DNA from: a virus
Length of the DNA stretch: 20,819 nucleotides
IMG/VR virus record: IMGVR_UViG_3300020411_001839
Coordinates: 1-20,819 of that record
Reading direction: 5' to 3' (one strand)
Shown here piece by piece: positions 1-20,819 of the stretch. Both the position numbers and the translations under genes were made by a program. Numbering within the stretch: position 1 is the first letter of the stretch; each line of letters opens with the position of its first letter. Under the pieces are notes generated by a model. That model was not told the DNA's origin. It worked only from the letters and a program-made list of their open reading frames with translations, and searched no databases.

Positions 1-406
1 CTCTCACCCAGTCGACTTACAGTTCTCATGCTGCGACAGTTTCCTTTGTAGTGTGGACATGGGATAAAGGCAATAAACCCACGACACCTATCGTAAGCCG
101 TTCCTAAGACCTACTAAGCAGTATCTTCTCTTTCTTCGTTCGCCGTCTCAACAGCCGTCACCTTGACATCATTGCCTACGTTGGTGGAGACTAGCGGAAG
201 GTTTGTCCGTTCCCTCTATTTTCTGATGGTCATCAATACACCATTGGACTATCCTTTAATAGAGTTGGGAAATTTGGTAACCCCCTCAGACCTGAATAGA
301 ATCAAACGTGTTCTTAACACAGGCTCTTTTACAGAAGGGCTAACCAGTCGGGGAGTCAGTGACCTCATTGTCACAGGGGAATTTCTCTTCCCACCCAACA
401 TAAATA
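1..406. other. Gene-free stretch downstream of a leftward promoter
   Basis: No convincing gene was found here on either strand. All three minus-strand frames are broken by stops every 30 to 40 codons or less. The best plus-strand frame needs a TTG start at 163 with no Shine-Dalgarno sequence and resembles nothing I know. The stretch lies directly downstream of the minus-strand promoter at 407-435, so it should be transcribed leftward. Three short inverted repeats occur early in that transcript: 377-381 with 388-392, 359-363 with 370-374, and 308-312 with 316-320, each a 5-bp stem. It may be an untranslated leader, a non-coding RNA or a decayed gene. No tRNA-like T-arm was seen. Confidence 0.5.
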
Positions 407-435
407 AGTATACACTACCTTGAGCGATTTGTCAA
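407..435 (-). promoter_or_regulatory. Sigma70-type promoter, leftward
   Basis: Read on the minus strand, a perfect TTGACA -35 box (430-435) is followed after 17 bp by TATACT (407-412). The predicted start is near 400. The flank is shared with the promoter at 17268-17296: both have TTCACTTGACA, then A or T, then ATCGCT, then 9 variable bases before GTATACT. This is one of four such promoters in the window, all on the minus strand. It has no obvious gene immediately downstream. Confidence 0.85.
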
Positions 436-447
436 GTGAAATATACT
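420..447 (+). promoter_or_regulatory. Possible rightward promoter for the nitroreductase gene
   Basis: On the plus strand TATACT (442-447) follows TTGAGC (420-425) after 16 bp. The -10 is good and the -35 matches at four of six positions. Transcription would start near 454, only two or three bases before the ATG at 457, giving a nearly leaderless mRNA. That agrees with the absence of a Shine-Dalgarno sequence before this ATG. The elements interleave with the opposite promoter at 407-435, so the two could exclude each other. Confidence 0.4.
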
Positions 448-456
448 AAATAATGT

Positions 457-1095
457 ATGAATATTGAAAAAAGTTCGTTATATGCTGGGCACTGTCAACG
501 CAACTGGGACCACACAAGGTTTATTCCAGATGCGGATATTGAGACAATAACCAACGTTGCTATGAACATGCCTACCAAACAGAATGTCCTTCAGTATGAA
601 CTCATTGTTGTCAAAGACAGAGAGAAGATAGAAGACCTCTTCGAAATAGCCGTCAGTGTACAGGATGATGTAATGTCTGGTGGTACAGTGTTTAGAGGCA
701 ATGAGTTTTACAGAAATGGACAAGTCAACGCATCCCTCCTCCTTATCTGGGCCACCACCACTCACCCAGAAATGAAAACTAACCCTGACTGGAAAGACTC
801 TTCTAATACAGACAAAGATAGTAAATGTGTCGGAGTTGGTATTTCAGCTGGTGCTACGGCTCTTGCTAGTAACCACTTAGGATACAGAACAGGTTTTTGT
901 AACTGTTTTGACAATAAGAGAATGCAAAAATTCATCAATGAACATACAGAGTATGGTGAGTTTTTCGTCACCTCATTAGGTATTGGATATCCCTTGGAAG
1001 GTTATGATAGAAACCAGACAGTCGTTGACGATGAGATATTGTATACTTCAGTCATCAAGGCAGACCAGAAAAGAAAAATTGTTACAGTAGTATGA
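457..1095 (+). CDS. Nitroreductase-family protein
   Basis: This 212-aa protein resembles the FMN-dependent nitroreductase family, which reduces nitro groups, quinones or flavins using NAD(P)H. What I see is the family's general plan: a short N-terminal segment with a Cys-Gln-Arg near residue 13, a helix followed by an Asn/Gln pair and a strand (Tyr-Glu-Leu-Ile-Val-Val, about 47-52), a central hydrophobic strand (Asn-Ala-Ser-Leu-Leu-Leu-Ile), and a Gly-rich helix with Gly-Tyr-Arg-Thr-Gly, where the family contacts FMN. A closing Leu-Gly-Ile-Gly-Tyr-Pro strand follows. The length is normal for the family. It overlaps the next gene by ATGA. Such genes occur in T4-like cyanophages, where the substrate is unknown. 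The family call is fairly safe; catalytic competence is not shown. Confidence 0.75.
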   Translation: MNIEKSSLYAGHCQRNWDHTRFIPDADIETITNVAMNMPTKQNVLQYELIVVKDREKIEDLFEIAVSVQDDVMSGGTVFRGNEFYRNGQVNASLLLIWATTTHPEMKTNPDWKDSSNTDKDSKCVGVGISAGATALASNHLGYRTGFCNCFDNKRMQKFINEHTEYGEFFVTSLGIGYPLEGYDRNQTVVDDEILYTSVIKADQKRKIVTVV

Positions 1096-1676
1096 ATGTT
1101 TGTCCGTCACAGAATATTACAAAGTCTCATTTAAAAATATTCCAAAATGAGAAACCTCTTGCCGTCAATACGATACCTAAACGAATAACTAGAAGATGTG
1201 GCGAGTTTGAACCTTATACGGACTGGTCTCTTGATGAGATCAACTATTTAGATTTCAAACTCACAAAACAAGGATATCATCTTGACATTCTTCGTGAGTA
1301 TCTATCTTCTGGCACAACAATAAAGATGCTACACTTGTGTCATTTTTTTGACTATTTGAACTCAAACTTATTTTTGTATTGGGATGTGGTTCTAGAGATA
1401 TTGAATAAACCACCAAACAGAGTCGTACACCTTGAACTATTTAATATTGACTATTATGCTAAAACGACTCATGAGGAGAATGTGAAATACTTGAATCAAC
1501 TCAACTTTGAGAACTTCTATCAAGTCGACTACCATCACGTATTGTCTGACAGTCAAGCCCTTCACTATTCAATATATACAAAAGAGCTTGACCATCGTTA
1601 TACATATCCTAATCAGTACATGGGTGTACAAGACATAGGTATCTTGTATGACCCTGAGGCGGATAGACTTAGTTAA
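1092..1676 (+). CDS. Hypothetical protein, coupled to nitroreductase
   Basis: This 194-aa protein matches no family I recognise. It is rich in Tyr, His, Asp and Asn, has no signal peptide or membrane segment, and has scattered Cys residues without a CxxC pair. Its ATG sits in the ATGA overlap with the nitroreductase stop, so the two are probably translated together from one rightward transcript. Its own stop (1674-1676) lies within the convergent gene on the other strand, an 8-bp tail-to-tail overlap with no terminator between them. One of only three GATC sites in the window lies here (1238-1241). It could be a substrate-specific partner of the nitroreductase, but that is only a guess from position. 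Confidence 0.7.
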   Translation: MNVCPSQNITKSHLKIFQNEKPLAVNTIPKRITRRCGEFEPYTDWSLDEINYLDFKLTKQGYHLDILREYLSSGTTIKMLHLCHFFDYLNSNLFLYWDVVLEILNKPPNRVVHLELFNIDYYAKTTHEENVKYLNQLNFENFYQVDYHHVLSDSQALHYSIYTKELDHRYTYPNQYMGVQDIGILYDPEADRLS

Positions 1677-2727
1677 TTGGAAACTTAGAAGTTACTCCAT
1701 CAACGTAGTACATCATAGTCTCAATTTCAGGTCGTTTGATGACACCGGCATCGATAGTAGAGCCGTCTTGTTTGGTGACTCCTTGTGAGAAAGGATACCA
1801 AGTGTCAAGTTCATCATTTACCCAATTCATCTTGATAGTCTCAACTTTGTTGACTACCTCGCCTGGGACGTTCTTACCCCAAGGAGAAAGACCGACACAG
1901 TTTGTCTCAATACCCCAGTTCCATCGATTACCAGAGGTGAGTTTACCCTCAGCCGCAAGATCAGCGATGTGTTTGTAGAGTACGTTCCAGTTGAACATCA
2001 TACCAGTGATGTAACTGTTAGGTCCAAACTGTCCCATAGGTGCATCATTACCCATACTCCAAACACCTTCTCTCTGTTCAGCGAGAGTGACCACACTTGG
2101 TGAGTCAGTGGTTGTGAAGAGAACGTCATTACCTTGGTCGGCTAATACCTTGGCCGCATCCATATCTTTGGGTGGGTCAAACCAAGAGTTAATCCATACT
2201 ACTGATACTTCTACGTCTGGGTTGACAGACTTTGCACCAATAGTCAGGGCGTTAATGTTACGAATGATTTCAGGAATGGGATGTGAACCGACAACCCCAA
2301 TCTTATTTGTCTTGGTCATCATACCCGCGGCGATACCTGTCAGGTAACGAGCCTGGAATGAGTGACAGACATAGTTATCCATATTTTTTGAACCCTTGTA
2401 TCCAGTAGCGTGTAAAAAGAAAGTCTTCTTCCTAGACTTTGACGCTCTGAGCATGGGTTCCATGTATCCAAAGGACGTACCAAAAACTAGGTCGTGCTTC
2501 CGAGCCAGTTTCTTGAATACACGTTCTGAGTCTGCCTCTGCTACAGACTCCACTCCCTCTACCTTGTATCCATGTTTGGTGAGAGACTGGAAACCTTGGT
2601 CGTGACGCATGGACCATCCCCCATCGTTCTTTGGACCGACCAGTACATAACCAATTGACAACTTGTCCTTTGCCAAAGCTCCAAATGCAAAGAACATTGA
2701 AATAATTAATAATGATATACGTTTCAT
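1669..2727 (-). CDS. BMP-family (Med/PnrA-like) ABC transporter substrate-binding protein
   Basis: This 352-aa protein looks like a periplasmic binding protein of the basic membrane protein family. Characterised members, such as Treponema PnrA, bind nucleosides and hand them to an ABC permease. Residues 1-19 form a clean Sec signal peptide ending Ala-Leu-Ala. The mature start (Gly-Tyr-Val-Leu-Val-Gly-Pro, then Asp-Gly-Gly-Trp and His-Asp-Gln-Gly) is the family's hallmark. A His-Ala-Thr-Gly-Tyr segment, Pro-Ile-Pro-Glu-Ile-Ile-Arg and Trp-Phe-Asp-Pro follow in family order. Remembered relatives are mostly alphaproteobacterial. The length is complete. The SD (AAAGG) lies in the 3' end of the lipoprotein gene one base upstream, so translation is coupled. 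No permease or ATPase genes are nearby, so it would have to use a host transporter. It is probably an auxiliary metabolic gene acquired from a host. Confidence 0.88.
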   Translation of the reverse strand: MKRISLLIISMFFAFGALAKDKLSIGYVLVGPKNDGGWSMRHDQGFQSLTKHGYKVEGVESVAEADSERVFKKLARKHDLVFGTSFGYMEPMLRASKSRKKTFFLHATGYKGSKNMDNYVCHSFQARYLTGIAAGMMTKTNKIGVVGSHPIPEIIRNINALTIGAKSVNPDVEVSVVWINSWFDPPKDMDAAKVLADQGNDVLFTTTDSPSVVTLAEQREGVWSMGNDAPMGQFGPNSYITGMMFNWNVLYKHIADLAAEGKLTSGNRWNWGIETNCVGLSPWGKNVPGEVVNKVETIKMNWVNDELDTWYPFSQGVTKQDGSTIDAGVIKRPEIETMMYYVDGVTSKFPIN

Positions 2728-2728
2728 T

Positions 2729-3577
2729 TTACCTTTCGAAAATGATGGTTAGTGTTTGGGAATGTGCACGACATTCATTGCCGACACCACCCCAGTTTGA
2801 GTTCCCTATCAAGGGACGCACAGTCCAGGCCTTTGTGGTACAGGAACAATCACCAGTGCTTCCAACTGCGATTGACCGACCACCACCACACTGTCCTATC
2901 CTCCAAGTTTTTCCATTACAGGAGAACACTGCATCGTTCTCGGCTTTATACCCTGTAATGACTTGTGAGGCATTGTCACAGGAAGTGAGGTTGTCTGGAT
3001 TGCCTAATGAGACTTTTGACCAGTTATCGGAAACTGATATGTTGTCCCAGAAGTTTTTATATTTCGTAATGATATCTTGTGTGGGTCTTGTGTTTCTGAT
3101 GAAGTCATCTGACCACGTGACGTTATCACCAGTGAGTGTGATTTCTTCTGTTGTCGTATTATCCGTTGTGTTATCTTGTGTAGTTTCAAAGATAGGATGA
3201 TTAGTATTGAAATGAACAGGAATACTAACAGTGATGGTATTTGGGCTTGAACTTGTGACAACAAAATTTGTGGAAAATCCATCTCCGTATAGCTCGGGAT
3301 GTGGGTCAATGTAGGACTCATAATCAATGTATATTGAGGTGTCAAGAGGTACAGTGACATACGCCGAACCATTTACCAGTTCGGCGGTGTCCCATACCAG
3401 AGTGTCTTGTTTTACTCTGACTATTTCTTTTGTTGGGGCTGGATAAGATACACTTGTCTTGGCGGCTCTAGGTGTTCCATATTTAATTGTTACTGTCTTC
3501 GGCTCTGACTTCTGTTCCGCACAACCCATCATCAGCAGAAGCAATCCTATCACGCAACTTCTCAGCATATCGGACAT
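2729..3577 (-). CDS. Putative lipoprotein with Cys-rich C-terminus
   Basis: This is a 282-aa envelope protein of unknown role. The N-terminus has a hydrophobic run ending in the lipobox Leu-Met-Met-Gly-Cys (Cys19), so it should be lipidated and anchored. A Thr/Asn/Asp-rich middle (about 60-160) is typical of exported beta-rich or spacer segments. The last 90 residues carry several Cys and Gly-rich turns (Cys-Gly-Gly-Gly-Arg-Ser, Gly-Asn-Ser-Asn-Trp-Gly-Gly), suggesting a disulphide-bonded domain. The start is either the ATG at 3577 or the one at 3568. Both overlap the upstream gene by about 90 nt, and the overlap encodes the signal peptide. Next downstream is the BMP gene, two bases away. An envelope role such as superinfection exclusion or receptor masking is possible but unsupported by similarity. 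Confidence 0.75.
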   Translation of the reverse strand: MSDMLRSCVIGLLLLMMGCAEQKSEPKTVTIKYGTPRAAKTSVSYPAPTKEIVRVKQDTLVWDTAELVNGSAYVTVPLDTSIYIDYESYIDPHPELYGDGFSTNFVVTSSSPNTITVSIPVHFNTNHPIFETTQDNTTDNTTTEEITLTGDNVTWSDDFIRNTRPTQDIITKYKNFWDNISVSDNWSKVSLGNPDNLTSCDNASQVITGYKAENDAVFSCNGKTWRIGQCGGGRSIAVGSTGDCSCTTKAWTVRPLIGNSNWGGVGNECRAHSQTLTIIFER

Positions 3578-4713: not shown

Positions 4714-5456
4714 TATCTACCTATCTCTGTTCCGAACTTCTTCAGAGCGAGTTGATATCTTTTCTTATCATGTTGTTTCAAGACCTTAAAGAACTCACTC
4801 TGTGAAGTATAGTCTTTAATTTTAGAGGGAGTGTAGGGTCTTTGTACCCTAGCCTGAAACTCCCCAACTTCACTACGAATCGTTGGGTCAAACTCTTGAG
4901 GTGATAAGAAGTATGCCTTCTTGGACTTTCCTTTTGGTCCTTGGTTCTGCTTTTGGTGTTTGTACGCAAGAGAGATGTCCTGAACATAATGCATCAGTTC
5001 GTGTTTGACATCGTTCTCGATAATCGAGCACATCTTCACCAGTTCTACTTCCAAGTCTGACTCATCATCCACCACGCCGAGAACCTCTTCGACATAAGTG
5101 GCAAGGTATATAGTCACCATCCAGTTCTCAGGGTCATAGTCAGCTCTGTCTCTGGAGTTCTGTAGAGTTACATTCAGTCTCAGATAATCTGGGTCATCGT
5201 CTATTTCATCATGTTGATATTGTTTTGGTAGGTCAAGATGAGGTGATGCGTATTTGTAGTGGTTATCTTGTTGTTGTCTAGAAGGAACCTTCACGTGGAA
5301 TTGTTGTGCAACCTTCTTGATAATCTGTTTGGACTTACGTGAGTTCCAGTCTACCGATACACGTTTGAGTGCATGTCCCAGTGCAAAGGCACGAAAGTTC
5401 TTGTAGATGTTCGGTGGTGCCTTGATGAGACCTTCGAACAGTCCAAAAGGTTTCAC
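4713..5456 (-). CDS. Putative zincin-like metallopeptidase (HExxH)
   Basis: This 247-aa protein has a His-Glu-Leu-Met-His motif (residues 152-156) inside a helix, preceded by Asn-Asp-Val-Lys and followed by Tyr-Val-Gln-Asp. That is the zinc-binding and catalytic helix of zincin proteases. A conserved-looking Glu-rich segment about 40 residues later (Arg-Ser-Glu-Val-Gly-Glu-Phe) could supply the third zinc ligand of the gluzincin type. Upstream strands (residues 113-125) fit a zincin beta-sheet. The start is GTG in a GTGA overlap with the upstream kinase-phosphatase stop. No signal peptide is seen, so it works in the cytoplasm or the virion. The N-terminus Met-Lys-Pro-Phe-Gly-Leu-Phe-Glu-Gly resembles a T4 capsid-targeting peptide with an LxE/G cleavage site. 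The protease fold is likely; the substrate is unknown. Confidence 0.6.
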   Translation of the reverse strand: MKPFGLFEGLIKAPPNIYKNFRAFALGHALKRVSVDWNSRKSKQIIKKVAQQFHVKVPSRQQQDNHYKYASPHLDLPKQYQHDEIDDDPDYLRLNVTLQNSRDRADYDPENWMVTIYLATYVEEVLGVVDDESDLEVELVKMCSIIENDVKHELMHYVQDISLAYKHQKQNQGPKGKSKKAYFLSPQEFDPTIRSEVGEFQARVQRPYTPSKIKDYTSQSEFFKVLKQHDKKRYQLALKKFGTEIGR

Positions 5457-6703
5457 TTGAATCCAATTTTCTTGAGTTGTGCGATAGTCTTCGCTGCCGA
5501 TGTGTGGTGAATACCAATACCACCCTTGTCTCTGAAGGCCTTGATATTCTTCATGTGGTCATCGATGAGAATGTTTGGTCTTCCGTCTTTCCCATCTTTG
5601 GCGAAGTTTGCCTTGTTGATACGTTGGACAGTGTACACTCTACTTCTGTCTACGTTAAAGTTTTTCTTCATCCACTTTGTTTTGTCTTTGGGTGCTCTGG
5701 CTGAGATAGGACCACGGCCTGGTCTTGGGACTGCAGTCAACATATGTGGTTGGTACTTACCGATAAACTTCCAGAGTTGGTCAGCGTCAGGCATCTTGGG
5801 TAACTGGGCGAACATATCTTCTGGTAGACTGTCCCAGTCATCATCAGTGAACTTGTGACCAAGATGTTTTTGAGTGAATCCAACAAAGTCAGCTACGACT
5901 CCGTCCATGTCACAATAGATGTGTGGACTGTCAAACTCCGTGATGTATTCTCTCTCCTCTTTACCAGTCCAGTGGTGTAGGTTACTCATGAAATCGTCTG
6001 AGTTCATCAGTTTGTCAGCCGCGTCCTCTTTCGCTTTCTTCTCTGCCTTTATCCACGCCTGACCGATAGGGTTACCTACTTCTTTTTTAGAAGCCTTTGC
6101 AATGAGTTTGTATACTTTACCAAGTATCTGTTTGGATACCTCTTCTGGTTGGTCATCGTTGTCTACAATAACCAGTCTTTGACCGAACATTCTCTTATAG
6201 TTGCCTAGTTGAGACTGTACCTCATTCCACATATCCTCAACGACTTTATCTTTAAGTCTTCTTGCCCTCATTCTATTTCTCTGTAGGGCTGTTTCCAGTT
6301 TGGTATTTACGAATATCATGAAACAGTCGTAACCAAGTTTCTCAAACTTCAGTTTAGACTTTTGTATCTTTCCAGAGTCTTTACCTGTTCCGTCAACGAT
6401 GATACCCAGTCTACCTCTCAACCATATTTCGGTCTTCTTGTTGGTCAGTCGTTTTGCGTCAGCTCGTATCTCCTGTGACTTCTCCCAGTCGGCATCTGAA
6501 AACTTTGTGAAGTCTAGACCAACGGACTTGGATAGTTTGAGTTCATAGATTTCGTCTGAGTTGGACACCTTGTATCCCAGACCACCAGTCACATTTGACT
6601 GGACATATGACTTACCTGAGCCTGGTCCGCCTGCCATGAAGATACACTTCAGTACGGATGGGTCATAGACGCCCTCATTGAGGACTTGCATGAAGTTTTT
6701 CAT
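5453..6703 (-). CDS. P-loop kinase fused to HAD-type phosphatase
   Basis: This 416-aa fusion has an N-terminal P-loop (Gly-Gly-Pro-Gly-Ser-Gly-Lys-Ser, residues 25-32) of the zeta toxin or polynucleotide kinase type. A second strand ends Ile-Val-Asp-Gly-Thr-Gly near 105, and an Arg-rich lid lies around 142-149. A charged linker (about 205-255) leads to a HAD domain: motif I Asp-Met-Asp-Gly-Val-Val-Ala-Asp-Phe (265-273), a possible motif II Thr323, and a motif IV Asp-Asp pair (381-382) followed by Asn-Ile-Lys-Ala. The HAD part looks closest to 5'(3')-deoxyribonucleotidases. T4 Pnkp has the same kinase-then-phosphatase order in 301 aa. A repair role on RNA or DNA ends is therefore plausible, but nucleotide metabolism is possible too. 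An AAGGA SD precedes the ATG, which overlaps the cupin stop (ATGA). Confidence 0.82.
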   Translation of the reverse strand: MKNFMQVLNEGVYDPSVLKCIFMAGGPGSGKSYVQSNVTGGLGYKVSNSDEIYELKLSKSVGLDFTKFSDADWEKSQEIRADAKRLTNKKTEIWLRGRLGIIVDGTGKDSGKIQKSKLKFEKLGYDCFMIFVNTKLETALQRNRMRARRLKDKVVEDMWNEVQSQLGNYKRMFGQRLVIVDNDDQPEEVSKQILGKVYKLIAKASKKEVGNPIGQAWIKAEKKAKEDAADKLMNSDDFMSNLHHWTGKEEREYITEFDSPHIYCDMDGVVADFVGFTQKHLGHKFTDDDWDSLPEDMFAQLPKMPDADQLWKFIGKYQPHMLTAVPRPGRGPISARAPKDKTKWMKKNFNVDRSRVYTVQRINKANFAKDGKDGRPNILIDDHMKNIKAFRDKGGIGIHHTSAAKTIAQLKKIGFK

Positions 6704-8923: not shown

Positions 8924-9628
8924 TTAGGCTGCCAATTCTCTTCTCGCAATAATATATTCACGTACAAAGTCACTTCGTACAATATCCTCGTACTGGTCGA
9001 ATTCAATCATACCAAAGGATTCACATTTGTTGAGTATTGACATAACGGCGACACTAGATGCTTTCTCCTTATCGTTTCGGAAGTCCGACTGAAATACATC
9101 GCCGCTCAAGATAATACGAGTGTTTCTCCCTACCCTTGTTAGTATGGAATCCAACTCGTGTCCATTTAAATTTTGAAACTCGTCAATAAATAAAACTTTA
9201 TTGTCCAAGGTCAAACCACGTATAAACGAAGTAGATATAAAATCGATTTGTCCTGCCGACTTTAGTTCATTATATGCATTCACTTCACCAGTCAATTGGT
9301 GACACAATGACCAATAAGGTTGTTCGTATATCCCTATTTTCTCTTGTTCCGAGCCTGGGAGGTGTCCAATTTCTCTAGTAGGAACTATGGACCTGACTAT
9401 GACCACCTGTTCCTGCTCATTGGCCCTTACCGCACTTAATCCTAGATGGAGGGCTAGATACGATTTACCTGTTCCTGCAAACCCAGAAAGGACAAGGTTC
9501 TTTCCAGAGTTCCATGTCTGAATGACCTGACCTTGTTTGTATGTCTTGGGTTTCAGGTTTTTTAACCAAAATTGTCCAAACCTAAAGTCATAATTAATAA
9601 CTTGGGACTTTCGATTCCGTTTTGCCAT
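8924..9628 (-). CDS. phoH: PhoH-like P-loop ATPase
   Basis: This 234-aa protein is a PhoH-family ATPase. Walker A is Gly-Phe-Ala-Gly-Thr-Gly-Lys-Ser (49-56). The PhoH-specific stretch Val-Arg-Ser-Ile-Val-Pro-Thr-Arg-Glu-Ile-Gly-His-Leu-Pro-Gly follows (78-92), then Glu-Gln-Glu-Lys-Ile. Walker B is Val-Leu-Phe-Ile-Asp-Glu-Phe-Gln (145-152), and sensor-like Ser-Gly-Asp comes near 176. The size is that of phage PhoH, about 100 aa shorter than many bacterial versions. PhoH is widespread in marine phages; its biochemical role, perhaps in RNA metabolism, is unsettled despite the historical link to phosphate starvation. It stands alone between its own consensus promoter and a hairpin, unlike its densely overlapped neighbours. 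No Pho box was recognised. Confidence 0.92.
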   Translation of the reverse strand: MAKRNRKSQVINYDFRFGQFWLKNLKPKTYKQGQVIQTWNSGKNLVLSGFAGTGKSYLALHLGLSAVRANEQEQVVIVRSIVPTREIGHLPGSEQEKIGIYEQPYWSLCHQLTGEVNAYNELKSAGQIDFISTSFIRGLTLDNKVLFIDEFQNLNGHELDSILTRVGRNTRIILSGDVFQSDFRNDKEKASSVAVMSILNKCESFGMIEFDQYEDIVRSDFVREYIIARRELAA

Positions 9629-12202: not shown

Positions 12203-13048
12203 TTATCCTGTAAAGAAGTCTTGCACGTTTTCTTGTAACGTGGGTAGACGTTTTTCAATCAAATAGTTTAGTATTTTGGAGTTATCTCCGTGGGAGGCTT
12301 CACCAAAGTAAAGCTCCTTAATTTTAGCATCAACCTCTTTGGGTTGTTTTGTCAGGTCTACCATCATCTCGTTTCGAAGGTAGTTCCTGTAGAGAGTTTC
12401 ACTGAGAACCTTTTGAGGTTCAAACATTTTCCACTCTTCAAACTTTTTCTTGGAGAGAGGTGACTGTCTTCGTCCTTCGACAAACACGTTATCGTCTGTC
12501 ATGATATTCGGGACTCCGTCACCAGTATCACCATAGAATATCTTTCTGGTTAAGTCGTTCTTTTCATTCTGTTCTACAAACTTTTTCAACATTGGGTTGT
12601 ACTGACATACGTGTTCTGTATGTAGTTGAGCAAAATCTCCGTCTGAAGAAACAATGACTGTCTTCTCGTTTGTGTTACGAGATACGACAGCAATGATATC
12701 ATCAGCCTCACATCCATCCAGATGCATGACACGATACGGAAAGACTTTGATTATCTCATCCTTGATTTGGTGCATCCACTTGAACAGTAGGTTCCAGTCA
12801 AGGTCAGACTCTTCTCTCGTCTTCTTTCTATGAGCTTTGTAGTTGGGGAAATATTTTTTTCTCCAGTTATTACTTCCGTCATAACAGAGAATCATGGTAG
12901 GACCATACTCTTGTTTGAACTTCTTAAAGATGTTTCGATAAGAGTTCAGTATCACGTGTCTTACAAATCCCTCGTCTTCTAGGTTGCCCTGTTTCTGGGC
13001 AACCATGAGTGAGGCTACTGATATTTGTGTTGCATCAACTAAAATCAA
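12203..13048 (-). CDS. rnh: T4-type RNase H (5'-3' exonuclease, FEN1 family)
   Basis: This protein removes RNA primers and short 5' flaps at lagging-strand forks. I place the start at TTG 13048 in a TTGA overlap with the glycosyltransferase stop, giving 281 aa (T4: 305). The longer open frame upstream lies wholly inside the glycosyltransferase and adds an unlikely Arg-rich leader. Active-site acids appear in order: Asp5 (Ile-Leu-Val-Asp-Ala), Asp57 (Cys-Tyr-Asp-Gly) with the basic arch Arg-Lys-Lys-Tyr-Phe-Pro-Asn-Tyr-Lys after it, Glu114 with Asp116 and Asp117 (Cys-Glu-Ala-Asp-Asp-Ile), Asp136 and Asp138 (Ser-Ser-Asp-Gly-Asp-Phe), and Asp174 and Asp177 (Gly-Asp-Thr-Gly-Asp-Gly). A GAGGTGG sequence upstream can serve as SD. 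A strong hairpin lies about 45 bases into the gene. Confidence 0.88.
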   Translation of the reverse strand: MILVDATQISVASLMVAQKQGNLEDEGFVRHVILNSYRNIFKKFKQEYGPTMILCYDGSNNWRKKYFPNYKAHRKKTREESDLDWNLLFKWMHQIKDEIIKVFPYRVMHLDGCEADDIIAVVSRNTNEKTVIVSSDGDFAQLHTEHVCQYNPMLKKFVEQNEKNDLTRKIFYGDTGDGVPNIMTDDNVFVEGRRQSPLSKKKFEEWKMFEPQKVLSETLYRNYLRNEMMVDLTKQPKEVDAKIKELYFGEASHGDNSKILNYLIEKRLPTLQENVQDFFTG

Positions 13049-14133
13049 GCCGCTTCTTCCACCTCTTCTGTAATTGTTTCCGCAGTTTCTTTTGCGAGTT
13101 TCTGGTCTATCTGAACCAGATAGGCCCTGAGTAGTGCCTCCCATTGTGGTCCTCTGTTCTTCCACGAGTAGAACCTGTCAGCGTAGGCACGTCCAAACTT
13201 CATTGTATCAACAGCTCCCTGAGAGTGATACGTGTTCATTGAATGGTCAAGTAACCCAGCCATTCTCATTACGTGTTCTTCTGGTGAACCAGGCTGGTCG
13301 TAACAGATACCACAATTTGCCACTGTCTCTGGTAGAGCTCCGTGGGCTGATGCGATAATCATATTACCACCATACATCGCCTCCATCACAGCCATACAGG
13401 ATGTCTCTTCCCAGATGGATGGATAGGCGTAGATGTGGTTCGTTGAAAGGTGTTCCCTGACCTTCTCATTCGGTTGAACTCCGTGGTTGACAATCCAGTC
13501 ACATTCACCGATAGCCTCAAAGAGAGGTTTGAATGGTTCATTGTTGTCATCGAAACCATAGATGTCAAACCCAGAGAAGATGTTCAGTCGAAAGTCTGAA
13601 CGTTTGGTTCTGAGTGCACGACACGCCTCAAATAGAATAGCCAGTCCACGTTGTGGTGTGGAAGTGTATGTGATGTCAAAAGTCATATCCTTGTCATCTT
13701 CAAGGGTCCACTTTGACTCATCACATTCAACGTATTCTACTGCGTTGTGGATGGTTAGGATTCTGTCAGGAGGAATATTATAGTTGTATCTCTGGAACAT
13801 TTCTCGTTGCCAGTGAGATACGAATATAACCTTTTCAATTCGGTCGGATTCCCAGTCATTCCCTCTGAGGTGTTCATACATGGGATCACTATACAAGTCC
13901 TGTATGATATAAATAGTCGGCTTAGACTCATCAATGACTTCTTCATGCCACCGACTAACGATGATATTATATCTGTCACGAATCTCCTTCGGAACATTCT
14001 TAAACAGGTTTATTGTGTACAACTCAGACCCGCCCAACGAGTTGTAGGCTGGGTGTGTGTCAGTGGAATGTTGTGGGATAGTAAAATCTGCATCCCAGTT
14101 GTCTTTATATACTCTTTGTATATCTTTACTCAT
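13045..14133 (-). CDS. GT4-like glycosyltransferase
   Basis: This 362-aa enzyme has the two-domain GT-B layout. Domain 1 contains Gly-Gly-Ser-Glu-Leu-Tyr (34-39), the usual acceptor or phosphate loop, and ends near Val-Ile-Phe-Val-Ser-His-Trp-Gln-Arg (102-110) and Ile-His-Asn-Ala-Val (128-132). Domain 2 has the retaining-transferase motif Glu-x7-Glu (243 and 251) in a Glu-Glu-Thr-Ser-Cys-Met-Ala-Val-Met-Glu helix and Ser-Ala-His-Gly-Ala-Leu-Pro-Glu (262-269). It would move a sugar from a nucleotide donor, perhaps onto phage DNA, virion protein or host surface glycans. The ATG at 14133 overlaps the upstream stop by 8 nt; a longer frame up to 14190 only adds a Met-rich leader read from the neighbour. 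The third GATC of the window lies here (13884). Confidence 0.85.
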   Translation of the reverse strand: MSKDIQRVYKDNWDADFTIPQHSTDTHPAYNSLGGSELYTINLFKNVPKEIRDRYNIIVSRWHEEVIDESKPTIYIIQDLYSDPMYEHLRGNDWESDRIEKVIFVSHWQREMFQRYNYNIPPDRILTIHNAVEYVECDESKWTLEDDKDMTFDITYTSTPQRGLAILFEACRALRTKRSDFRLNIFSGFDIYGFDDNNEPFKPLFEAIGECDWIVNHGVQPNEKVREHLSTNHIYAYPSIWEETSCMAVMEAMYGGNMIIASAHGALPETVANCGICYDQPGSPEEHVMRMAGLLDHSMNTYHSQGAVDTMKFGRAYADRFYSWKNRGPQWEALLRAYLVQIDQKLAKETAETITEEVEEAA

Positions 14134-17267: not shown

Positions 17268-17296
17268 AGTATACCCGAACTCCAGCGATATGTCAA
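17268..17296 (-). promoter_or_regulatory. Sigma70-type promoter of the long leftward operon
   Basis: On the minus strand TTGACA (17291-17296) is followed after 17 bp by TATACT (17268-17273). The predicted start is near 17261, leaving a leader of about 35 bases before the 42-aa gene. The -35 box contains the TGA stop of the methylase gene (17293-17295), so promoter and coding end overlap. The flank TTCACTTGACA with ATCGCT six bases on is shared with the promoter at 407-435. Confidence 0.9.
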
Positions 17297-18174
17297 GTGA
17301 AAAGTGCATTTTTTTCAAAAAAGTTTCGAATAAATACTTCCGTCACTTTTCTCTTCCCTTTTCTCTGGGCTGTAAAGTTGTTCTCCAACTCTATTATTTC
17401 AAAGTGTGGAATATGTTGTTGAAAGAAGCCGTCACCAATGTCTTTGTTTGAGTAGGAAACCAGAGAACCCTTTGTATCAAGTTCATCACAGAGGTGAAGA
17501 AGGTCTATCTGGTCTTGCTCTGAGAATACGTCAACTCCCTCGTAACCATCGGAGTCTCTGTAAGGTGGGTCAAAATAGAAGTATGTACCTTTACCAGCAT
17601 ATCTATCTAGGTATCGAAAGTCCCAGTCGTTAATGGAACATCTCTCACGAAAGAAGGATGCAGTCTCTTTGAGGTTTTCGATGTCCAGAAAACTTTTCTT
17701 CTCTTTCACAGTTCCTGGCGGTGTAGCGTATCTTCCATTTGAATAGTTGTAGGTCTTCCACCAACCATTGAAGTTTATCTTCAACATGAAAAGAAGTTTG
17801 GATGACTCAGTCGGAGTTTCACCAAATGGTTGGTTTGCAGCGATGTAGGAGAGTTTTATCTTATTATAGAAGGCCTTACGTTCTTCCTTTAGGTCATGGT
17901 GTATCTCAAGATACTTTGACTCAAGTTCGAATGAACGTTCTATCATTTCAGCCTCGTGTGAGGCTAAGTTCTTGTAAAGTGATACCAACTCGTTGTTGAC
18001 ATCATTTATTATGAAGCGTGCGTTGGGAAAGCGTTCTTTGGCCGCACAAGTGACAGACCCAGCTCCGTAGAAACCATCTACGAAAGTTGTCACCTCTTCA
18101 GCAGGCCAGAATGATGGACCGAACTTGTCCATCATTTTTCTTTTAGAACCTGTCCACTTGAAAAGTGGTTTCAT
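17293..18174 (-). CDS. D12-class adenine-N6 DNA methyltransferase (Dam-like)
   Basis: This 293-aa enzyme transfers a methyl group from SAM to adenine in DNA. N-terminal Lys-Trp-Thr-Gly-Ser-Lys-Arg-Lys (6-13) is the class signature. Phe-Tyr-Gly-Ala-Gly-Ser-Val (34-40) is the SAM loop, Asn-Asp-Val-Asn (57-60) binds the ribose, and Asp-Pro-Pro-Tyr near residue 200 is the catalytic motif IV. The length is right for Dam and T4 Dam relatives. Recognition of GATC is common in this class but cannot be proved from the sequence. It is striking that GATC is nearly absent from the window. The gene follows a putative nuclease by two bases, and its end supplies part of the next promoter. Confidence 0.92.
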   Translation of the reverse strand: MKPLFKWTGSKRKMMDKFGPSFWPAEEVTTFVDGFYGAGSVTCAAKERFPNARFIINDVNNELVSLYKNLASHEAEMIERSFELESKYLEIHHDLKEERKAFYNKIKLSYIAANQPFGETPTESSKLLFMLKINFNGWWKTYNYSNGRYATPPGTVKEKKSFLDIENLKETASFFRERCSINDWDFRYLDRYAGKGTYFYFDPPYRDSDGYEGVDVFSEQDQIDLLHLCDELDTKGSLVSYSNKDIGDGFFQQHIPHFEIIELENNFTAQRKGKRKVTEVFIRNFFEKNALFT

Positions 18175-19348: not shown

Positions 19349-20819
19349 TTAGTGTTCTACTGAAATGACGGAGAAGTTCCCTTGTTTCCTTACGTTGATG
19401 GTTCTAGTAAATTTGTCTGCCAGTATCTCACCCTTGTGGGAGATAATGAATATGTTCGTCCCTGTTAAATCATAAATGATTTTAATAAGTTCTTCTGTAC
19501 CAGAAGCATCAAGACTAGAGTCAAAGGTCTCATCCAGAATAAGAAGGTTCGTACTGACTGAACCTCGGCTCTTACTTATTGCCCTCCAAGTCAGTAGTAA
19601 AGCCAGGTCTATTCTCTGTCTCTCACCCATAGAAAAGTTCTCATACTTGAACTCATCTTGATACCTTGACCTTACTACCTCCTTGAACGACTCATCAAGC
19701 TCAAAACGAATAGGTAGCCCCATTCTCTGAAGATACACATTCGCAGTGTGGTTGATGATGGGTACATACTGTTTGATGATTTGGGCCTTGATGCCGTCAT
19801 CACGTAACAGTTTGTACGCCGTGTCATACAGGTCTTTCGTGTGAACGAGTTCTTCCAGTTCCTTTTCAAGGACTTTCAAAGTCTTACGTTCGTCTTCCAA
19901 GTCTGACGTATCCATCTCTTCTAGTTCGGACATCACTTTCTCAATATCCTTGTGTCGGAGTTTGATTATCTTCTTGGTGTTTTCTATCTCCTGTATCTTA
20001 CGTTGAATACTATAACTCAATTCAGCACATTTGTCAAGTGTATTCTGAATATTTTTTTGAGTTTTTTCAAGTTCGGTAATGCCGTGGTCACATTCAGTCT
20101 GTTTCTCTGTCGCCTCTTTTCTCTTGGTCGAACGAATATCGTCTGGGAGATGTTGAGTGCAGGTCGGACATTCTGTATTGTCCTCAAAGAACTTATTCTC
20201 TTTGGCCCACTTCTTTGCATTGGTCTTGAGTTGGTAGATGAGGTCGTTGACTGTATCGAGTTCATCCTCTTTACCTTTGGAGTTGAGGTTGGCCAGTTCA
20301 GCTGACATAGTCTCCTGTTCACTCCGAATAGTTTCTAGGTTCTGAGTTTCTTTGTCTATCTCTGTCTTGATAGCCTCAACCTTCTTCTCAGCCTGTTCTT
20401 CTTGTTTTGCAACATGACTCTCTTTGATAGAGATGGACTGAGTCTTGAGGTCCACATTGTGTCGGGTGTCCTGTAACTCCACCTTGTTGTCTGACCTCTT
20501 CGAACCTAGAACGTCATTCATCAGAGAGAATATTTCTATGTCCAATAGGTCTTCGACTATCTTTCTCCTCTCACCAGTTCCCAACAACATGAATGGTGTG
20601 TGAGATGCAGAACCAAGACAGACAACTTGTCGAAACGAGTTTATTCTCATCTTGAGAATATTCTGTTCTAGGTTCTTCTGATAGTCAGCCACAGAGGCTG
20701 GTCTTGGTAATACCTTTCCATCACAATAGATGTCAAAGATAGTTGGTCCGATACCACGAACTATCTTGTATTCACGACTTCCAATAGTAAACTCACATTC
20801 GACTACACAGTCTCTCTTG
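19349..20819 (-). CDS. 46: Recombination endonuclease subunit gp46 (SbcC/Rad50-like), 5' end cut off
   Basis: This is the ATPase subunit of the T4 gp46-gp47 complex, which trims DNA ends for recombination-dependent replication. The frame is open to the right edge, so the visible 489 aa lack roughly the first 70 (Walker A). A GTG at 20692 is internal, not the start. Seen features are Val-Val-Cys-Leu-Gly-Ser-Ala-Ser near residue 66 and a long coiled coil interrupted by the zinc hook Cys-Pro-Thr-Cys (217-220). The ABC signature Ser-Met-Gly-Glu-Arg-Gln-Arg comes late, with Walker B Leu-Leu-Ile-Leu-Asp-Glu-Thr-Phe-Asp and Ile-Ile-Ser-His-Lys after it. The partner gp47 is expected beyond the window. 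A consensus promoter lies inside the coding part (20009-20037). Confidence 0.93.
   Translation of the reverse strand, partial: KRDCVVECEFTIGSREYKIVRGIGPTIFDIYCDGKVLPRPASVADYQKNLEQNILKMRINSFRQVVCLGSASHTPFMLLGTGERRKIVEDLLDIEIFSLMNDVLGSKRSDNKVELQDTRHNVDLKTQSISIKESHVAKQEEQAEKKVEAIKTEIDKETQNLETIRSEQETMSAELANLNSKGKEDELDTVNDLIYQLKTNAKKWAKENKFFEDNTECPTCTQHLPDDIRSTKRKEATEKQTECDHGITELEKTQKNIQNTLDKCAELSYSIQRKIQEIENTKKIIKLRHKDIEKVMSELEEMDTSDLEDERKTLKVLEKELEELVHTKDLYDTAYKLLRDDGIKAQIIKQYVPIINHTANVYLQRMGLPIRFELDESFKEVVRSRYQDEFKYENFSMGERQRIDLALLLTWRAISKSRGSVSTNLLILDETFDSSLDASGTEELIKIIYDLTGTNIFIISHKGEILADKFTRTINVRKQGNFSVISVEH
20009..20037 (-). promoter_or_regulatory. Promoter-like site inside gene 46
   Basis: On the minus strand TTGACA (20032-20037) is followed after 17 bp by TATAGT (20009-20014). 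The flanking ACTTGACAAAT and GCT match the promoters at 407 and 17268. It lies within the coiled-coil coding part of gene 46, so it could drive the nuclease and methylase genes downstream without full gp46. Coding constraint makes a chance match possible, but the spacing and shared flank argue otherwise. Confidence 0.55.

Follow-up and report, generated by a model that had tools for sequence, protein, structure and literature searches.

The bmp gene of a 20,819-base IMG/VR viral record, the whole of which was analysed here and is called the window, probably encodes a secreted purine-base binding protein that feeds the host permease. The carrier, a T4-like phage known from metagenomes only, would have acquired the gene from its host, out of an ABC operon of BMP type. 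The gene is real and intact. Its open reading frame begins with ATG and comprises 352 codons (Table 1), and the product matches the Pfam Bmp profile PF02608 over positions 2-293 of 301 with 153.5 bits, as compared with a cut-off of 24.1 (E=8e-45). The AlphaFold2 model is that of a two-lobe binding protein (pLDDT 91.6, pTM 0.88), and dN/dS values of 0.05-0.18 within the viral bmp clade establish that the gene is under purifying selection. The N-terminus, MKRISLLIISMFFAFGALA followed by KDK, reads by eye as a Sec signal that has an A-x-A site but no lipobox Cys, and the low model confidence over residues 1-19 fits a signal that is cleaved. The first-pass annotation had described a BMP-family protein with an intact signal peptide and complete family motifs; an intact member of the family, with its ligand residues in place, is borne out, and a signal peptide is readable.

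Table 1. Features of the window, with their positions on the 20,819-base record, strand and the basis of each assignment.
Feature	Position	Strand	Basis
Segment downstream of bmp, unlike L001: 86-aa, nitroreductase-family and 194-aa ORFs on + strand	1..1663	.	Identity break
bmp: purine-nucleobase-type BMP-family periplasmic binding protein (putative ligand class), 352 aa	1669..2727	-	ORF, Pfam, AlphaFold2, Foldseek
F245 codon; lysine contacting ribose at same position in nucleoside binders	1993..1995	-	Alignment with Lbp, PnrA
Base-pocket stretch: S85, F86, E153, N157, W182, T206, D208; W38 upstream of stretch	2104..2475	-	AtzT ligand residues mapped
Signal peptide (putative), residues 1-19	2671..2727	-	By eye from sequence; low model confidence there
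282-aa lipoprotein-like gene, directly upstream of bmp	2729..3577	-	Gene clustering, cluster 82
PhoH-like protein	8924..9628	-	phrog_170 E=4e-68
T4 RNase H-type 5'-3' exonuclease	12203..13165	-	phrog_107; PF02739, PF09293
D12-class adenine methyltransferase	17293-18174		
T4 gp46/SbcC-like recombination nuclease subunit, 5' end off contig	19349..20818	-	phrog_77 E=5e-102

The protein had been annotated as nucleoside-type and Med/PnrA-like. Sequence, fold and pocket residues all place it instead in the purine-nucleobase branch of AtzT and 3s99, and the phage BMP most likely binds adenine or guanine. The nearest solved proteins by sequence are 3s99 (E 3e-69) and AtzT (1e-65), with the nucleoside binders at 3e-18 or weaker, and the best Foldseek matches of the model are the same two proteins, with TM-scores of 0.84-0.90 (0.85-0.90 for AtzT) as against 0.72-0.73, by query length, for PnrA, BmpD and Lbp, which bind nucleosides. 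The crystallised ligand of AtzT is guanine, bound with a Kd of 110 nM (2.5 uM for adenine), and adenine has been modelled in the 3s99 structure (PMC6834077). The ligand residues of AtzT map to W38, S85, F86, E153, N157, W182, T206 and D208 of the phage protein and, T206 excepted, these are invariant in all viral rows covering each position; at the T206 position 72 viral sequences have Thr and 2 have Ser. Loss of the ligand-binding residues, which the annotation had named as one observation that would tell against it, is not seen.

Among the AtzT residues by which membership of the branch was judged, Ser97, Phe98, Glu165 and Trp194 are matched by S85, F86, E153 and W182, and Asn218 and Asn220 are replaced by T206 and D208. 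In the alignment AtzT is likewise not matched at the latter two positions by 3s99 or by the majority of the bacterial proteins in the branch, so these do not define it. Because of the two replacements the ligand may differ from that of AtzT; guanine, adenine and hypoxanthine are the candidates. AtzT, from Pseudomonas sp. ADP (PDB 6pi5, 6pi6, 6pii), is like the phage protein a two-lobe cluster B binding protein, to which it is 36% identical, and its guanine-pocket Ser, Phe, Glu, Asn and Trp are retained in the phage BMP, whereas its Tyr45, Asn218, Asn220 and Thr139 are replaced by Trp, Thr, Asp and Arg. It is moreover a plasmid-borne bacterial protein of measured guanine affinity, whereas the phage BMP is known from its sequence and a predicted model. 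The best sequence match, the Brucella melitensis BMP protein 3s99, for which we found no binding study, has Trp and Asp, like the phage BMP, where both deviate from AtzT, and differs from the phage protein in that His replaces T206 and Gly replaces N157.

That the protein is a Med/PnrA-type nucleoside binder feeding nucleosides to a host permease is unlikely. PnrA, BmpA, BmpD and Lbp belong to the same Pfam family, have the same general fold (TM about 0.72) and are the next nearest solved proteins, but their scores are far lower than those of 3s99, and the base-pocket Ser, Glu and Asp, which this group does not have (Lbp and PnrA in the alignment), are all present in the phage BMP. Further, nucleoside binders contact ribose through a lysine (BmpA Lys242, PMC13325309) that is present in Lbp and PnrA; its counterpart in the window (F245) and in every viral row is Phe. 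W38 and W182 stand where Lbp and PnrA have Phe, at sites that presumably correspond to Phe27 and Phe176 in BmpA numbering, and the aromatic cradle of these two BmpA residues is not reproduced. The Med/PnrA assignment was rejected on the pocket residues and the similarity scores, and because of its nearest proteins and folds, its conserved base pocket and its lost ribose lysine we read BMP as a purine-base binder.

The annotation had taken the window for phage rather than host DNA, and rightly so given the company that bmp keeps: genes of gp46 type and RNase H type, PhoH, a D12 methyltransferase (Table 1) and also a peptide deformylase. The best INPHARED matches of the gp46/SbcC-like gene are T4-like phages, and the T4 major capsid protein gp23 is encoded on 4 of 9 contigs of bmp-bearing relatives as opposed to 0 of 14 control genomes. 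It is extremely improbable that host DNA has been misclassified as viral here; while the nearest bacterial homologues are chromosomal and at least one short record (L038, which may itself be a bacterial fragment) clusters with host copies, the possibility is effectively refuted by the phage genes that flank bmp in identical order in the window and the related loci L001 and L007, and it is at odds with relatives that have bmp and gp23 on one contig and with the position of bmp close downstream of an apparent T4-type DNA polymerase in roughly 20 loci. A host contig was accordingly ruled out by the PHROGs matches nearby together with gp23 on the contigs of relatives. Being phage-encoded and having host orthologues in the same clade, bmp is a candidate auxiliary metabolic gene. 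The 282-aa lipoprotein-like gene, which has no match in Pfam or PHROGs, likewise lies directly upstream of bmp in L001, L006 and L007. Elsewhere in the window, positions 5453-6703 encode a protein of 416 aa in which a P-loop kinase domain, matched weakly by Zeta_toxin and AAA_33, is combined with a C-terminal portion of HAD-like appearance. It is probably not a toxin but a repair enzyme resembling polynucleotide kinase/phosphatase.

Only 3 GATC sites occur in the window where 67.5 are expected, and one of them, at 1959, is inside bmp, as the first-pass annotation had stated in proposing a late arrival of the gene. With 1 site in bmp and a single one in the remainder of the window past bmp, where 60 are expected, there is a weak hint in this direction. 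The proposal is nevertheless poorly supported and we have rejected it: the GC content of bmp (44.5%) and its GC3 (44.8%) are similar to those of neighbouring genes, GATC is low in bmp as well (1 as against 3.7 expected), and L007 has bmp in the same gene order. Since this order is shared although the two BMP proteins are just 80% identical, bmp probably predates the split between the window and L007. GATC is equally depleted in L007 (3 as against 40 expected) and in the first 6.7 kb of L001 (2 as against 25), and is not depleted in L006 and L015; its near-absence fits the encoded D12 methyltransferase or host restriction. The DNA recently exchanged is likely to be that just downstream of bmp, not bmp. 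Identity to L001, at 98.9%, ends at window position 1663, about 6 bp past the bmp stop codon, and the differing segment of L001 has a normal number of GATC sites (5 as against 5.1 expected). The nitroreductase-family ORF of the window segment is recognised by Pfam with E=4e-7; L001 carries a tRNA-synthetase-class-II-like gene in place of this ORF and the 194-aa ORF.

Homologues are widespread in viral metagenomes; the annotation had suggested looking for them in marine viromes. BMP relatives are encoded by 286 stretches in IMG/VR, of which we retained the best 80 for analysis, and in the tree all of these 80 that are long enough fall into one virus-dominated clade that stands apart from most bacterial homologues. 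The exceptions are L077-L080 (about 40% identity), which cluster with a bacterium of SAR116 and were not counted in the viral clade. The earlier remark that a phage-borne BMP is unusual is correct for deposited phages, as INPHARED yields distant matches only, with at most 34% identity and mostly to unannotated faecal contigs that are possibly bacterial. Lactobacillus phage Ldl1 and Enterococcus phage Efs 1-1-1 have BMP-like stretches that are 21-23% identical over about 60% of the length and lie outside this clade. PHROGs gave no match to BMP, the best BFVD structure is a partial match to a fragment, and in the open-access literature searched we found no earlier report of phage BMP genes.

The nearest bacterial orthologues, 66-74% identical, are found in 5 of 52 genomes of one phylum, which was reached through the MAG 'Deltaproteobacteria bacterium isolate NP72' and is probably SAR324, a former Deltaproteobacteria cluster that is now ranked as a phylum (PMC9031357). 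Judging from these orthologues the host of the window phage would be a member of the same phylum. Three of the five genomes have the order permease, permease, bmp, 2OG-Fe(II) oxygenase; permeases adjoin bmp in the fourth, and in the fifth the oxygenase adjoins it with no permease there. The operon permeases match the NCBIfam models of BMP-type ABC permeases with scores below the cut-offs. A cousin in genome G043 (45% identical) is embedded in the order allantoinase PuuE, deaminase, ATPase, two permeases, bmp, adenosine deaminase, PuuD-like, UraD, where PuuE, adenosine deaminase and UraD score above their NCBIfam cut-offs and the PuuD-like, guanine-deaminase-like and HIU-hydrolase-like assignments are read from sequence and so are putative. 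Three host copies lie inside the viral part of the BMP tree, suggesting exchange between these bacteria and their phages. The best reading of bmp is that of a captured host binding-protein gene from a BMP-type ABC operon.

In order to describe the surroundings of bmp in viral loci the neighbouring genes were clustered into groups, and the counts that follow refer to non-redundant groups of loci unless contigs are named. A purine phosphoribosyltransferase, with 1vdm and GpT-1/GpT-2 as nearest solved relatives, lies at most three genes upstream of bmp in 29 of the 36 viral groups with context, and is present on 18 of 26 contigs searched whole; GMP reductase is found on 8 of 26 contigs of viral relatives. 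A 2OG-Fe(II) oxygenase follows bmp in 17 of 33 viral groups, with one copy 68% identical to the oxygenase of the host operon, and the nearest solved relative of the latter is thymine dioxygenase. Also near bmp in relatives are an APRT-like enzyme, PRPP synthetase, OMP decarboxylase, half of a Na/Pi cotransporter and an NMT1/THI5-type ABC system. A ligand other than a purine, for instance a pyrimidine base or a vitamin, seems improbable to us, slightly more so than a nucleoside. It would find some footing in the thymine dioxygenase kinship of the linked oxygenase and in the nearest NCBIfam model, NF047927 (putative B6 transporter), a weak match at 46 bits for a cut-off of 400, but the pocket agrees with purine binders, the linked phosphoribosyltransferase is nearest to purine enzymes and the cousin operon in G043 is one of purine catabolism.

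Several further genes recur in these loci. Downstream of bmp in L002, L004, L005, L010, L014 and L017 there is a phage-borne NMT1/THI5-type binding protein, ATPase and permease, a set after which several loci encode an arylsulfotransferase-like protein. Of 43 phage groups, 7 have an isocitrate-lyase-family gene in the vicinity of bmp (L046:5009-6271, L047 and L016-type loci; E=7e-103). On the opposite strand near bmp a gene for a class II tRNA-synthetase-like protein (Asp/Asn/Lys type) of about 292 aa, shorter than the usual full length, is common (L063:6558-7436 and relatives), and L058:16844-19144, L006 and L015 encode, close to bmp, a VWA-like protein of about 766 aa that looks CobT-like and has no Pfam match.

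No salvage enzyme or permease was seen in the window or on the contigs of its four closest relatives, all of which are fragments (8-27 kb), and the BMP of the window phage would on this account rely on the permease and the salvage enzymes of the host. The salvage island is a feature of relatives, and what is supported for the window phage is the purine-base-type binding protein. A broader proposal, to which we give even chances, is that of a widespread, uncultured T4-like phage lineage, infecting SAR324-like bacteria, with a modular island for purine acquisition and salvage by which bases from the water would be imported into viral DNA; the island would consist of the binding protein, the purine phosphoribosyltransferase, GMP reductase, the APRT-like enzyme, PRPP synthetase and a polytopic protein that is possibly a new base permease.

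This polytopic protein, of 377 aa, is encoded within three genes after bmp in 9 of 33 viral groups (just after it in L010, L012, L031, L033, L043, L058, L072 and others). It is strongly conserved in phages, usually with an APRT-like gene after it, and two other phage groups, where no bmp lies within about 4 kb, also have it beside the APRT-like gene. It has no match in Pfam, NCBIfam, PHROGs, INPHARED or the PDB, nor in the host phylum, a search run without a positive control. Identity as an NCS2 permease was considered and is unsupported by Pfam, NCBIfam, PDB profiles, hhalign and AlphaFold: the PDB profile search and hhalign against four NCS2 proteins gave nothing usable, and the AlphaFold model has a pLDDT of 46. 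Its context allows the guess that it represents a new family of base permeases. It is highly unlikely that BMP partners this phage-encoded membrane protein rather than the host ABC permease. The proximity to bmp and to the APRT-like gene, the latter also where bmp is not seen nearby, would suit such a partnership, but neither the window nor its closest relatives show the protein, it is missing near most viral bmp genes, and the searches for a family assignment gave none.

The best-known uptake genes of phages are those for phosphate. Phage-encoded PstS is a lone periplasmic binding protein that is thought to work through the host permease, and although it belongs to another protein family and binds phosphate rather than a purine, the parallel suggests that here too a single binding subunit may suffice. 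Cooperation with a host permease, as the first-pass annotation had proposed for nucleosides, is plausible for purine bases. A T4-like phage would have captured bmp from a host ABC operon of BMP type; in the infected cell the gene would place more binding protein in the periplasm, where the phage BMP would dock to the host's own permeases and pass on purine bases (adenine and/or guanine/hypoxanthine). Phosphoribosyltransferases, supplied by the host in the case of the window phage and encoded beside bmp by many related phages, would then convert the bases to nucleotides for phage DNA, to the benefit of its replication.

The significance of these results lies in a putative purine-base receptor that selection maintains in many T4-like phages, often with its gene beside that of an enzyme converting the base to a nucleotide. 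Purine exchange has been described among ocean microbes (PMC11698098). If the proposed role is correct, some phages would draw building blocks for DNA from outside the cell during infection, and viruses would be tied to this exchange.
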